From Actinospica robiniae DSM 44927 (lineage in GTDB: Bacteria; Actinomycetota; Actinomycetes; Streptomycetales; Catenulisporaceae), in the NCBI RefSeq assembly GCF_000504285.1, contig NZ_KI632511.1, positions 2,849,372-2,913,371 of the forward strand: DNA of 64,000 nt, given 5' to 3'. A model generated the notes under the pieces. That model saw only the letters and a list, made by a program, of their open reading frames with translations. It was not told the origin of the DNA and made no database searches. This document shows positions 53,075 through 63,979 of the stretch, piece by piece. Each line of letters opens with the position of its first letter. Positions within the stretch are counted from its first letter, which is position 1. The translations under genes were made by a program, and so were the position numbers.

Positions 53075-53743
53075 ATGCCGTTGTCGGCCGCCCGCGCCAT
53101 CCTGCTCGACATGGACGGGACGCTGGTGAACTCCGACGCCGCCGTCGCACGCGCCTGGCACCGCTGGGCCGACCGCCACGGACTCGACGGCGGCTACGCC
53201 TACCGGATCTCGCACGGACGGCAGTCGCACGACACAATGGCCGAACTCCTGCCGGACCGGCCACTGGCGCAGCACCTGGCCGACTCGCGCGAGCTGGTCG
53301 CCGGGGAGACCGCAGACCTCGAAGGGGTGATCCCGGTCCCCGGCGCCGCCGGGCTCCTCGCCGCGCTCGCCGGCGTCCCGCACGCGCTCGTGACCTCGGC
53401 CAGCGACCCGCTAGCCCGCGCCCGGATGGGCGCCGCCGGGCTCCCGCTGCCATCCGTCCTGATCACGGCCGAGCTGGTCAGCGCGGGCAAGCCGGCCCCC
53501 GACGGCTTCCTCAAGGCCGCCGCCGAGCTCGGCGTGGATCCGGCCGACTGTCTCGCGTTCGAAGACTCCGGCGCCGGCATCGCCGCCGCGAAGGCCGCCG
53601 GCATGCGTGTGGTCGGCATCGGCGAGCGGGCGGCCGCCCACGGACCGACACTGCACGTCACGGACTTCGACGACCTCTCGGTCACCAAGACGTCCGACGG
53701 CGGCGTGCACATCAGGGGCGGTGGCGCTGTCGGGGGCGTGTGA
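53075..53743 (+). CDS. HAD-superfamily sugar phosphatase
   Basis: 222 residues from ATG 53075 with GCGGAGG upstream. HAD motif I is AILLDMDGTLVNSDAAVARA (nucleophile and acid Asp), motif II is ALVTSASDPLARAR, motif III Lys is in SAGKPAPDGFLKAAAELGVD and motif IV is CLAFEDSGAGIAAAKAAGMR. The helical cap after motif I (YRISHGRQSHDTMAELLP) is of the type found in beta-phosphoglucomutase-like sugar phosphatases. It should remove phosphate from small sugar phosphates. The product ends in an unusual Gly/Val tail (RGGGAVGGV). Confidence 0.9.
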   Translation: MPLSAARAILLDMDGTLVNSDAAVARAWHRWADRHGLDGGYAYRISHGRQSHDTMAELLPDRPLAQHLADSRELVAGETADLEGVIPVPGAAGLLAALAGVPHALVTSASDPLARARMGAAGLPLPSVLITAELVSAGKPAPDGFLKAAAELGVDPADCLAFEDSGAGIAAAKAAGMRVVGIGERAAAHGPTLHVTDFDDLSVTKTSDGGVHIRGGGAVGGV

Positions 53744-53795: not shown

Positions 53796-54614
53796 GTGGA
53801 CGTAGGCACCAGGCGTGACGTCCTGCTCGGCTCGGAAGAGCTCGATCGGTACGCAGCATCGCTCATCATCGCCGACGGCTACCCCTCCACGCGGCTGTTC
53901 CTCTCCCACCCCGAGGTGCGCTTCGACGAGACGACCCTGTGGGTCCCGCCGGGCCCCTGGCACGTCACCGGCCACCGCAACCGCCGCGACGCGCCGGCCG
54001 CGATGAGCGACCCCGAGCTGCCCGACTTCGACGGCGAGCCCATCGTCGACCCGGCGCTCACCGCCCGCTGGCGAGCGTCCGGCCTGCTCGTCGACCAGCA
54101 CGGACGCCCCGTCCACCCGGACTGGCGCGGCCTGCTCGCGCATCCGGGCATCGGCCTGCCCACCGGTCTCGGCTTCTTCTGGCGCTGGGGCCCGAACGCG
54201 ACGGTGGACGCGCTCGTCACCCGCCGCGCCCGCAGCGGCACCCAGATCCTGCTCGTGCGTCGGCGCGACGTCGGCAAGTGGGCGCTGCCCGGCGGATTCG
54301 TCGACCGCGAAGACGCCTCCGTGCAGGACGCTGCGCTGCGCGAACTGGCCGAGGAGACCGGCCTCGTCCTGCCCGCGCCCCGCACCGAGATAGCCCTCGC
54401 TCTGCGCTCCCCCAACGCGATCACCACGCTGCACGCGTGGACCGAGAACACGGTCGTGCTGGTCAACGGAGACGAGGACCACCTGGCCGACGCCGTGCTC
54501 ACGCCCGCCGAAGCAGAGGTCTCCGACGTCGCTTGGACCGACCTCGCGGCAGCCCGGGAGCTGGAGATGTTCGACCGGCACGCCTCTTACCTGTCGCTGG
54601 TGAGAGAGGCCTGA
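53796..54614 (+). CDS. NUDT9/TRPM2-like ADP-ribose hydrolase (Nudix)
   Basis: 272 residues from GTG 53796 with AAGGGGG upstream. The C-terminal Nudix domain has WALPGGFVDREDASVQDAAL followed by RELAEETG. The segment before it, FFWRWGPNATVDALVTRRAR, matches the RWGPNxAxDxxVTR block characteristic of mammalian NUDT9 and the TRPM2 channel NUDT9-homology domain. The N-terminal half (LFLSHPEVRFDETTLWVPPG, then SDPELPDFDGEPIVDPALTA and SGLLVDQHGRPVHPDWRGLL) follows the same order as the NUDT9 core. The expected reaction is ADP-ribose to AMP and ribose-5-phosphate. The Nudix box has one extra residue, and REL-AEE provides the metal Glu pair. Confidence 0.85.
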   Translation: MDVGTRRDVLLGSEELDRYAASLIIADGYPSTRLFLSHPEVRFDETTLWVPPGPWHVTGHRNRRDAPAAMSDPELPDFDGEPIVDPALTARWRASGLLVDQHGRPVHPDWRGLLAHPGIGLPTGLGFFWRWGPNATVDALVTRRARSGTQILLVRRRDVGKWALPGGFVDREDASVQDAALRELAEETGLVLPAPRTEIALALRSPNAITTLHAWTENTVVLVNGDEDHLADAVLTPAEAEVSDVAWTDLAAARELEMFDRHASYLSLVREA

Positions 54615-61625: not shown

Positions 61626-62735
61626 TCAGCAGGTGAGGTTGCCGCCGGGGCTGACACCGAGGATGGAGGCGAAGGACTCGTAGTCGTTGACCCGGTCCTG
61701 CATCTCAGCGGAGTTGCCGCCGTTGCATTCGATGTCGTTGATGGCCCGGATGGTGGCGCCGAAGCCGGAGCCGCCGACCATCGCCTGGTGGGAGGTCACC
61801 GAGCCGTTTCCGGTGCCGGTGAACCAGTACCACAGCGCGGTCCCCCAGGAGACGGCCGCGTTGGTGGAGACCAGGTTGGGGTTGTCGAGCAGGTCCTGAC
61901 CCAGCGCCTGCCCGGCCGCGTAGTAGTTGAAGTTCCACGAGATCTGCAGCGGGCCGCGGCCGTAGTAGGCGTAGGTGCCGGCCGGGCAGCCGTAGGACTC
62001 GGACGCGCAGTAGTCCCCGGACTGGTCGATCTCGTTGATGTAGACCAGTCCGCCGGTCTCGTGGTCGACGTTGGCCAGGAACGCCGCAGCCTCCTGCTTC
62101 TCGACCGTGGTGCCGCCGGTGGTGGCGAAGGCCGGGTAGGAGCTGAGCGCCGCGACCAGGCCGGAGTAGGTGTAGAACGAGTTGCGGCCCGGGAACATCT
62201 GGTCGAACTGCGCCTCGCTCACGACGAACCCGCTGGTGCCGCCTCCCGTTCCACCGCCGCCGCCGGAACCGGAGCAGGTGTACGGCGACCAGTACCAGGT
62301 GCTGATCGTCGGGTCGTAGCCCGGATTCGCGTTCGTGGCGATGTAAAGCTGGCCGTTCGCGGTGTAGGTGACGATGTCACCGACGTTGTAGTTCTGACCG
62401 GCGACCCACGCCGGGTAACTGCAACTACCGGTGCCGCCGCCACCGGATCCGCCGCTGCTGCCGCCGCTGCACGCGCCCTGGTCGGCCCAGACGGCCTGGC
62501 CGTTGTTGCCGGGGATGTCGCCCTGGGTCCACCACTTGGCGGACCAGTTGTCGCCGTTGTAGGAGGCGGTCATGCCGCCGGTGTAGACGGCGCTCGCGCT
62601 CCACGCCGCGGCGCACGCCGCTTCGGCGGCGGCCGGCTGCGCCGTGGCGACCGGCACGAACAGACCGAGGGCGCCGACCAGCATGGCCAGCACGGCGGTG
62701 AATCTGAGGCGCAGCGCCTCATGGAGGTGGGACAC
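61626..62735 (-). CDS. Secreted GH19 chitinase with two N-terminal chitin-binding modules
   Basis: 369 residues from ATG 62733-62735. A signal peptide (LRFTAVLAMLVGALGLFVPV...AAAEA) is followed by two CBM5/12-type modules: AWSASAVYTGGMTASYNGDN with WSAKWWTQGDIPG, and PAWVAGQNYNVGDIVTYTAN with PGYDPTISTWYWSPYTC, joined by Gly/Ser linkers. The GH19 domain starts FVVSEAQFDQMFPGRNSFYT. NVDHETGGLVYINEI holds the catalytic Glu, YYGRGPLQISWNFNYYAAGQ is the family signature, and GFGATIRAINDIECNGG lies near the C-terminus. It cleaves chitin by inversion outside the cell. Two DasR-type sites upstream imply control by N-acetylglucosamine. Confidence 0.95.
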   Translation of the reverse strand: MSHLHEALRLRFTAVLAMLVGALGLFVPVATAQPAAAEAACAAAWSASAVYTGGMTASYNGDNWSAKWWTQGDIPGNNGQAVWADQGACSGGSSGGSGGGGTGSCSYPAWVAGQNYNVGDIVTYTANGQLYIATNANPGYDPTISTWYWSPYTCSGSGGGGGTGGGTSGFVVSEAQFDQMFPGRNSFYTYSGLVAALSSYPAFATTGGTTVEKQEAAAFLANVDHETGGLVYINEIDQSGDYCASESYGCPAGTYAYYGRGPLQISWNFNYYAAGQALGQDLLDNPNLVSTNAAVSWGTALWYWFTGTGNGSVTSHQAMVGGSGFGATIRAINDIECNGGNSAEMQDRVNDYESFASILGVSPGGNLTC

Positions 62736-62914: not shown

Positions 62915-63979
62915 TCAGCCGTTCGCCGCGAAGCCGCCGTAGAACACGCCGAGCCCGAGCGTCACGCAGAGCCCTGCGATGATCCAGAACCTGATGGTGA
63001 TGTTGGCCTCCTGCCAGCCGATCAGCTCGAAGCTGTGGTGGATCGGGGCCATCGGGAACACCCGCTTGCGCCGAAGCTTGAACCAGCCCACCTGGATCAC
63101 CACCGAGAGCAGTTCGAACACGAACAGGCCTCCGATGATCACGGCGAGCAGCTCCGTGTGCGTGCAGATGGACAGGCCCGCGAAGGCGCCGCCGAGGCCC
63201 AGCGAGCCGGTGTCGCCCATGAAGATCTTCGCCGGAATGGCGTTCCACCAGAGGAATCCGAAGCACGAGCCCATCACCGCCGCCGCGACGACGGCCAGGT
63301 CCAGCGGATCGCGCACCTCGTAGCAGCCCTTTGCGGAACCCGAGCCGCAGCTCTGCCCGTACTGCCACACCCCGATCACCAGGTACGCGGCGAACGCCAT
63401 CACGGAGGCGCCGGTGCACATGCCGTCCTCGCCGTCGGTGATGTTGACTGCGTTGGACCAGCCTGCGGTCAGCACATAGCTCCAGAGCACGAACAGCACC
63501 GGGCCCAGGCCGAGCCAGCCGATGTCGTGCAGGAACGACACGTGGTCGCTGGCCGGGGTCAGCCCCATGGAGTTGTGGAAACGCAGTGCCAGCAACGCGA
63601 ACGCGATCGTGACCACCCACTGGCCGACGAGCTTCGCCTTCGCGCGCAGGCCGAGGGACCGGCGTCGGTGGATCTTGATGAAGTCGTCGACGAACCCGAC
63701 CATGCCCATGCCCGCCATCAGCAACAGCACCAGCAGGGCCGAGGCCGTCGGCCGCTGCCAGGTCAACGCCTTGGTGAGGAAGTAGGCGACCAGCGTGGAC
63801 AGCACGATCACGATGCCGCCCATCGTGGGCCGGCCCTGCTTGACCAGGTGAGCCTGGACGCCGTCGGTCCGCACCTGCTGGCCGAAGCCGCGGCGGGTGA
63901 ACACCTTGATCGCGATCGGGGTTCCGCCGAGCGAGCAGATCAGGGCGATGACTGAGGCGTAGAGAACCGCTCTCATCAC
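62915..63979 (-). CDS. mraY: Phospho-N-acetylmuramoyl-pentapeptide transferase (MraY-like)
   Basis: 354 residues from GTG 63977-63979, eight bases after GGAGGA; the next codon is ATG. Ten TM helices are expected. Key motifs are MVGFVDDFIKIHRRR (Asp-Asp), the conserved SNAVNITDGEDGMCTGAS (usual TDGLDGLA) and PAKIFMGDTGSLGLGG (Asp), followed by PIHHSFELIGWQE (HHH-type loop). It transfers phospho-MurNAc-pentapeptide to undecaprenyl phosphate, the first membrane step of peptidoglycan synthesis. The gene downstream is a chitinase, not murD as in a dcw cluster, and the TDGEDGMC variation is notable, so this could be a second, specialised copy. Confidence 0.88.
   Translation of the reverse strand: MMRAVLYASVIALICSLGGTPIAIKVFTRRGFGQQVRTDGVQAHLVKQGRPTMGGIVIVLSTLVAYFLTKALTWQRPTASALLVLLLMAGMGMVGFVDDFIKIHRRRSLGLRAKAKLVGQWVVTIAFALLALRFHNSMGLTPASDHVSFLHDIGWLGLGPVLFVLWSYVLTAGWSNAVNITDGEDGMCTGASVMAFAAYLVIGVWQYGQSCGSGSAKGCYEVRDPLDLAVVAAAVMGSCFGFLWWNAIPAKIFMGDTGSLGLGGAFAGLSICTHTELLAVIIGGLFVFELLSVVIQVGWFKLRRKRVFPMAPIHHSFELIGWQEANITIRFWIIAGLCVTLGLGVFYGGFAANG

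Follow-up and report, generated by a model that had tools for sequence, protein, structure and literature searches.

A predicted two-domain Nudix protein with NUDT9-like architecture in Actinospica robiniae

The gene, its orthologue and its cousins

The window analysed here is a 64,000-nucleotide stretch of the Actinospica robiniae DSM 44927 genome. On its forward strand an open reading frame runs from a GTG start codon at 53796 to a stop codon ending at 54614, and encodes a protein of 272 residues that is predicted to be a two-domain Nudix protein with NUDT9-like architecture. The frame is a real coding sequence, and its GC content by codon position (0.75/0.51/0.91) follows the pattern of high-GC coding sequence. 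An alternative in-frame GTG at 53607 (335 residue product) is the less likely start, because the only start codons of the Actinospica durhamensis orthologue adjoin the site aligned with 53796.

The C-terminal part of the protein is a Nudix hydrolase core (54195-54611, forward strand). NUDIX (PF00293) was the single Pfam family above the cut-off, matching residues 136-263 with 61.3 bits; a Nudt16-like match fell below the threshold. Residues 1 to about 132 form a predicted N-terminal cap region (53796-54191, forward strand), assigned with low model confidence from a fold-level match to the NUDT9/TRPM2 cap. Between the two, sequence and profile comparison identified a linker block with a NUDT9-like signature, DQHGRPVHP...IGLPTGLGFFWRWGPNATVDALVTRR (residues 100-144, with RWGPNATVDALVTRR at residues 130-144; 54093-54227, forward strand). 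The host genome (9.92 Mb) contains 43 Nudix matches.

The only orthologue found, 76% identical, comes from A. durhamensis, where its contig is 42,975 bases long. Full-length matches were present in 2 of 60 relatives including the genome of origin, the second being of the same genus; among the matches listed, the other genome of this genus had matches to the Nudix core only. In samples of 394 genomes of the class (E 1e-12, five candidates scored per genome) and 396 of the phylum (E 1e-14, six candidates scored per genome), which overlap with each other and with the 60 relatives, the single positive was in each case the genome of origin. A search of the phage collection returned no match, which speaks against a phage origin of the gene. 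Six PHROGs families matched the protein within its Nudix part only, and the top one is a general MutT/Nudix family.

The first 40 kb of the A. durhamensis contig share two segments with the window, this gene and one other, which is located 17 kb from the gene in A. durhamensis and 12 kb from it in the window. No conserved NAD-linked neighbour or operon partner was seen at these two loci. A HAD hydrolase is encoded upstream in the window, and a LysR regulator and an AMP-binding enzyme surround the A. durhamensis copy. Elsewhere in the window, on the reverse strand, inspection of the open reading frames by eye indicated a secreted chitinase/lysozyme-like protein bearing carbohydrate-binding repeats (61626-62735) and, adjoining it, an MraY-like protein (62915-63979).

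Two peptide patterns searched across genome contigs returned four loci, the orthologue and three cousins; across viral contigs they returned one, on a plasmid of Amycolatopsis YIM 10. Five cousins, hosted by Amycolatopsis and Actinokineospora (L039:4809-5711, L040:4773-5708 (= L053), L043:4902-5804, L044:4794-5711 and L045:4788-5711), share the pattern DQHGR-x-x-HP...LLA...IGLP-x-x-LG. One cousin is encoded on a mobilizable plasmid, with an integrase gene about 0.8 kb away, and another on a 39.9 kb plasmid that also carries glycoside hydrolase 25 and DUF5047 genes and that IMG/VR lists as viral. In Amycolatopsis keratiniphila, Pfam places an NrtR-type Nudix regulator (L044:3176-3877) upstream of the cousin, with one predicted gene between the two, a possible link to ADP-ribose.

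Likeness of the linker and the predicted fold to NUDT9

Human NUDT9 (PDB 1q33/1qvj) is a mitochondrial ADP-ribose pyrophosphatase, and the C-terminal domain of TRPM2 that handles ADP-ribose is homologous to it. The first-pass annotation had called the window protein a NUDT9/TRPM2-like ADP-ribose hydrolase, pointing to its RWGPN block and motif order. RWGPN is identical in human NUDT9, and the window protein has the NUDT9-type order of GRPxxP, glycine-rich link and RWGPN...D, followed by the Nudix core. The block GRPVHP...GLGFFWRWGPNATVDALVTRR, which precedes the core (about residues 134-272), is more like human NUDT9 than chance would allow. Residues 89-145 scored 15.6 bits, a value reached by none of 2000 shuffled targets (maximum 9.6), and the observation of the RWGPN block is confirmed. 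Residues 1-140 scored 8.6 bits (0/2000 shuffles as high, maximum 7.7), residues 1-133 scored 3.4 bits (reached by 29/2000 shuffles) and the core alone (134-272) scored 31.0 bits. These split-segment scores indicate that the NUDT9 block is real, but that upstream of about residue 89 pairwise comparison detects nothing.

In a sequence search of the PDB the best match was human NUDT9 1q33 (E 5e-9), followed by 2fml and the NrtR structure 3gz8 (both E 1.2e-6) and the TRPM2 chanzyme (5.3e-5). In a profile-profile comparison, the part of the protein before the core was set against the corresponding part of NUDT9 rows, 17 bacterial and two eukaryote; 30 columns aligned, from GRPxHP to WGxNxxxD, with a score of 23.8, where none of 300 column shuffles exceeded 19.2, and an hhalign probability of 14%. 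A profile of bacterial NUDT9 proteins for this region did not recognise the window protein (0.6 bits; 1535/10000 shuffles as high, and 755/5000 when the shuffles kept the last 12 residues); human NUDT9 and srTRPM2 scored 37.3 and 42.8 bits against it, the L053 row having been set aside for these scores. The profile of the window protein's own six-member family placed NadM 2qjo (E 1.1e-4) above NUDT9 (1.9e-3), and the best partial NCBIfam matches were NadM-type models and one NrtR model, all far below their cut-offs. Given a block that withstands shuffling, a negative sequence-profile test and a family profile that prefers NadM, the likeness of the linker to NUDT9 is, by these comparisons, real, and the relationship distant.

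Two AlphaFold models were compared with known structures. Model 1 was built from six sequences of the window protein's own family, without NUDT9-type rows (mean pLDDT 55.9), and model 2 from 17 sequences (mean pLDDT 74.8), 11 of which are NUDT9-like and may pull the fold towards NUDT9. Most core blocks of model 2 had pLDDT values of 81-97, residues 1-80 were at 48-60 per block and residues 121-130 at 47. Foldseek ranked NUDT9 1qvj first for model 2 (E 2.6e-12) with a poor whole-chain superposition (TM 0.49, rmsd 10.2), and VIA-align matched the same structure over 211 residues (model residues 9-272, Z 15.2, rmsd 3.5). The chanzyme structures listed aligned over 206-217 residues, beginning at model residue 9 or 12 and ending at 272, and the other matches listed (best 50) over 120-146 residues, nearly all within the core. 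By Z score NrtR 3gz8 (16.3) stood above NUDT9, and 6uuf (15.4) and 3h95 (15.0) were level with it, each on fewer residues. For model 1, Foldseek placed the generic Nudix protein 3i9x first and 1qvj second (E 5.8e-8), again with a poor whole-chain superposition on 1qvj (TM 0.46, rmsd 8.3). With VIA-align, four TRPM2 chanzyme rows aligned to model 1 over 185-192 residues (model residues 9-272, Z 12.7-12.9) and the other matches listed (best 50) over 120-133 residues; NUDT9 was not among the best 50 matches listed. Across the best 50 VIA-align matches of each model, only NUDT9/TRPM2 rows aligned over more than 146 residues.

An N-terminal cap followed by a C-terminal Nudix core is thus weakly discernible in predicted models of low N-terminal pLDDT, and a two-domain NUDT9 architecture is likely, not proved. 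The architecture proposed in the first-pass annotation holds for the motif order and the two-domain predicted fold, but finds no counterpart in sequence comparison of residues 1-133. The outcome named in advance as contrary to the proposal, a merely generic Nudix domain preceded by an unrelated N-terminal part, appeared in neither model, both being of low N-terminal confidence. Comparison with human NUDT9 gave a divided answer: it was the best PDB match and first in Foldseek for model 2, but the family profile preferred NadM.

That same preference, together with the partial NCBIfam matches, the top Z score of NrtR for model 2 and the silence of residues 1-133 in sequence comparison, would fit an ordinary NadM/NrtR-type Nudix core that acquired an unrelated N-terminal domain and came to resemble RWGPN by convergence. 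We consider this unlikely, as the linker block exceeds its shuffles and, among the best 50 matches listed for each model, the only long alignments are to NUDT9/TRPM2. The C-terminal winged-helix DNA-binding domain that is the hallmark of NrtR is absent by Pfam, the chain stopping after the core; the N-terminal NMN adenylyltransferase domain that is the hallmark of NadM has no Pfam match, and the NCBIfam NadM models reach the Nudix part only.

Ligand residues and the position in the tree

The usual Nudix box is Gx5Ex7REUxEExGU. In the window protein it reads G167-x5-D173-x8-R182-E-L-A-E-E-T-G (GFVDREDASVQDAALRELAEETGL, residues 167-190; 54294-54365, forward strand) and is by alignment one residue longer, with Glu 183, 186 and 187 kept. 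The extra residue, which the first-pass annotation had singled out, is really present and is common to L042. It is no NUDT9 trait, being absent from 11 NUDT9-like rows compared, and Shewanella NrtR has one further extra residue at the same spot; these two findings rule it out as a mark of NUDT9.

In the srTRPM2 chanzyme, as described in PMC11479946, the adenine is stacked between W1264 and F1372, and the terminal ribose is contacted by D1330; ADP-ribose binding involves an arginine pair, R1360 and R1428, the latter at the beta-phosphate; E1386 binds a Mg2+, and D1460 acts as the base. Residue roles were also drawn from PMC6461439. These positions were compared in 13 of 18 aligned bacterial NUDT9-like proteins, six members of the window family (L039 left out), srTRPM2 and the human protein. 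Three alignment modes agree in pairing D138 with D1330, R156 with R1360, E183 with E1386 and F168 with F1372, and E186 and E187 align with E1389 and E1390 of srTRPM2 (numbering counted by us), so that the active box REUxEE is present in the window protein. D1330, R1360 and E1386 are kept in 13/13 bacterial NUDT9 rows; the F1372 position varies among NUDT9 rows and is Met in human.

Three other positions differ, again with all three alignment modes in agreement. The adenine-stacking W1264 corresponds to Met70, in a part where the alignment is weak; Trp is found here in 12/13 bacterial NUDT9 rows (Tyr in L060) and in human, and in 0/6 of the window family. The beta-phosphate R1428 corresponds to Ile209, a position with Arg in 13/13 bacterial NUDT9 rows and in human, and in 0/6 of the window family. 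The catalytic D1460, which is Asp in 13/13 bacterial NUDT9 rows and in human, is conservatively changed to Glu241. R204, close to Ile209 and invariant in the window family, might stand in for R1428. Because two of the ligand-contact residues of the chanzyme are missing by alignment and the catalytic Asp has become Glu, ADP-ribose is not established as the substrate, and for want of the tested ligand and base residues the window protein was not filed as NUDT9.

The loss of the stacking Trp and the beta-phosphate Arg from a pocket whose catalytic glutamates stay, along with a long branch outside the NUDT9 clade, could mean that a capped hydrolase of NUDT9-like shape acts on a different substrate, such as another nucleoside diphosphate-X, a dinucleotide or an NDP-sugar. 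We hold this to be a distinct but minority possibility: the ribose-contact Asp (D138) and R156 are kept, and ADP-ribose proteins make up the groups nearest to it in sequence and fold.

In 5/5 cousins (L039, L043, L044, L045, L053) the Nudix box has an insert of about 17 residues and Lys or Thr replaces the first catalytic Glu; judged by these changes, the cousins look catalytically dead. Such replacements would suit a protein that senses or binds ADP-ribose and hydrolyses it little or not at all, as does the vertebrate TRPM2 NUDT9-H domain, but for the window protein we regard this as very improbable, since RELAEE is intact in it and in its orthologue, and both have an acidic residue where the base would sit. 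It is conceivable, though doubtful, that NUDT9 has an actinobacterial sister family in which the window protein stayed catalytic, while other members, some on plasmids, one of them phage-like, lost the catalytic glutamate and became binders of ADP-ribose or NAD signals. If true, this would be a bacterial parallel to the change of TRPM2 from enzyme to sensor.

Bacterial NUDT9-type proteins were observed at L011:1234-1965, L046-L051 and L057-L067. L011, a protein from a relative in the same taxonomic family, and its kin have the full NUDT9 order, with E 1.8e-18 to human NUDT9 for L011 alone and E 3.4e-30 for a profile of seven bacterial proteins. Matches to L011 were found in 5/296 class genomes (E 1e-15, nine candidates scored per genome) and in 66 plasmid records (E 1e-5), 44 of which cover at least 80% of the query and 45 of which are from Streptomyces; in viral contigs, 10 of the 80 loci retained span at least 190 of 243 residues. 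Bacteria thus own NUDT9 homologues that, judged by these scores, are closer to animal NUDT9 than is the window protein.

A tree was inferred from 46 Nudix-domain rows (L052, L059, L060, L068 and L074 left out), with 14 of 34 Nudix segments, five viral segments (L069-L073) and fragments of NrtR and NadM as outgroup; seven branches are long and two of the three eukaryote rows are odd in composition. Sixteen bacterial and three eukaryote (animal and choanoflagellate) rows form a clade (96/91) without the window protein. In this clade the eukaryotes group together (100/100) and join five bacterial rows (92/95), of which L011 and L046 are closest to them (93/74). Both the four cousins (100/100) and the window pair (100/100) appear to lie outside. 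Neither forcing all six window-family rows together with the NUDT9 clade (p 0.264) nor treating them as one clade (p 0.481) was rejected. A separate clade with support (95/94) unites the NadM/NrtR rows and excludes the window protein, and this argues against a NadM/NrtR-type core; the fact that the tree cannot fix the place of the window protein leaves some room for one.

The affinity to animal rather than bacterial proteins proposed in the first-pass annotation found no support: closer bacterial homologues exist, and it is among these that the eukaryotes group, whereas the window protein appears to fall outside. As to the direction of transfer, a tree with three eukaryote rows, two of them odd in composition, gives a hint only. 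The identity of RWGPN with human NUDT9 might invite the idea that the gene passed directly between animal and bacterium, which we find hardly credible. The three eukaryotes lie among the bacterial NUDT9 proteins and away from the window pair, and holding the two together costs 9.2 log-likelihood units, a placement that the tree disfavours and does not formally reject (p 0.17); in addition, the A. durhamensis orthologue lies near the second shared segment, as in the window.

Proposed activity and comparison with known systems

We consider there to be an even chance that the protein is a capped, soluble two-domain Nudix pyrophosphohydrolase of NUDT9-like architecture, with ADP-ribose or a related nucleoside diphosphate-X as its most likely substrate. 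The coding frame, the core with its catalytic glutamates, the NUDT9-like linker and the predicted two-domain fold were computed; the activity, base, substrate and role that we infer are as follows. The N-terminal cap and the C-terminal Nudix core would form a clamshell, in which glutamates 183, 186 and 187 would hold Mg2+ and thereby activate a water, with Glu241 perhaps serving as base in place of the usual Asp. The activated water would split a nucleoside diphosphate-X into AMP and a phosphorylated remainder. The substrate would most likely be free ADP-ribose or a close NAD-derived relative, and the role would be to clear by-products of the ADP-ribose type that arise in NAD turnover. NrtR and NadM, the other nearest groups, are likewise ADP-ribose proteins by their entry titles. 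The window protein appears to be a NUDT9-like variant and not a member of NUDT9, a distant relative and no animal gene in a bacterium.

The main texts of PMC11479946 and PMC6461439 contain 'prokaryot' in neither case and 'bacteri' 0 and 2 times, respectively, and from this near-absence they appear to trace the domain within animals and choanoflagellates. Bacterial NUDT9 proteins were not mentioned in titles or abstract openings among the matches listed, a search with most subscription journals outside its scope and so no sign that these proteins are unpublished. A bacterial relative beside the NUDT9 clade, together with the closer bacterial NUDT9 proteins, offers material on the origin of the domain and on the residues that define an ADP-ribose hydrolase. 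As for the window protein, it would be a rare enzyme with an ordinary-looking job.

The Nudix domains of NrtR and NadM have a similar core, NrtR giving the top VIA-align Z score and NadM scoring highest with the family profile, but they align over at most 146 residues of model 2 and form a separate supported clade. The NUDT9-H domain of the choanoflagellate TRPM2 chanzyme (PDB 8sr7 to 8sri) aligns with the predicted fold over far more of the chain among the matches listed (206-217 residues in model 2, 185-192 in model 1), but the window protein is free and not a channel domain, and its residues at the Trp, Arg and Asp positions for ligand and base differ. The bacterial NUDT9-type proteins (L011, L046-L051 and viral and plasmid relatives) share the overall order, with a profile comparison probability of 99.3% over residues 101-268; the 13 rows checked keep D1330, R1360, E1386, R1428 and D1460, and 16 rows join the eukaryote clade, whereas the window protein does not keep this full set and appears to stay outside the clade. 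Human NUDT9 shares with it the predicted two-domain order, the GRPxxP...RWGPN...D linker and a Nudix core with REUxEE, whereas in the window protein, as aligned, neither the Trp that stacks on the adenine nor the Arg at the beta-phosphate is present and Glu stands for the catalytic Asp; the window protein also carries a longer linker and one extra residue in the Nudix box, and appears to lie outside the NUDT9 clade.
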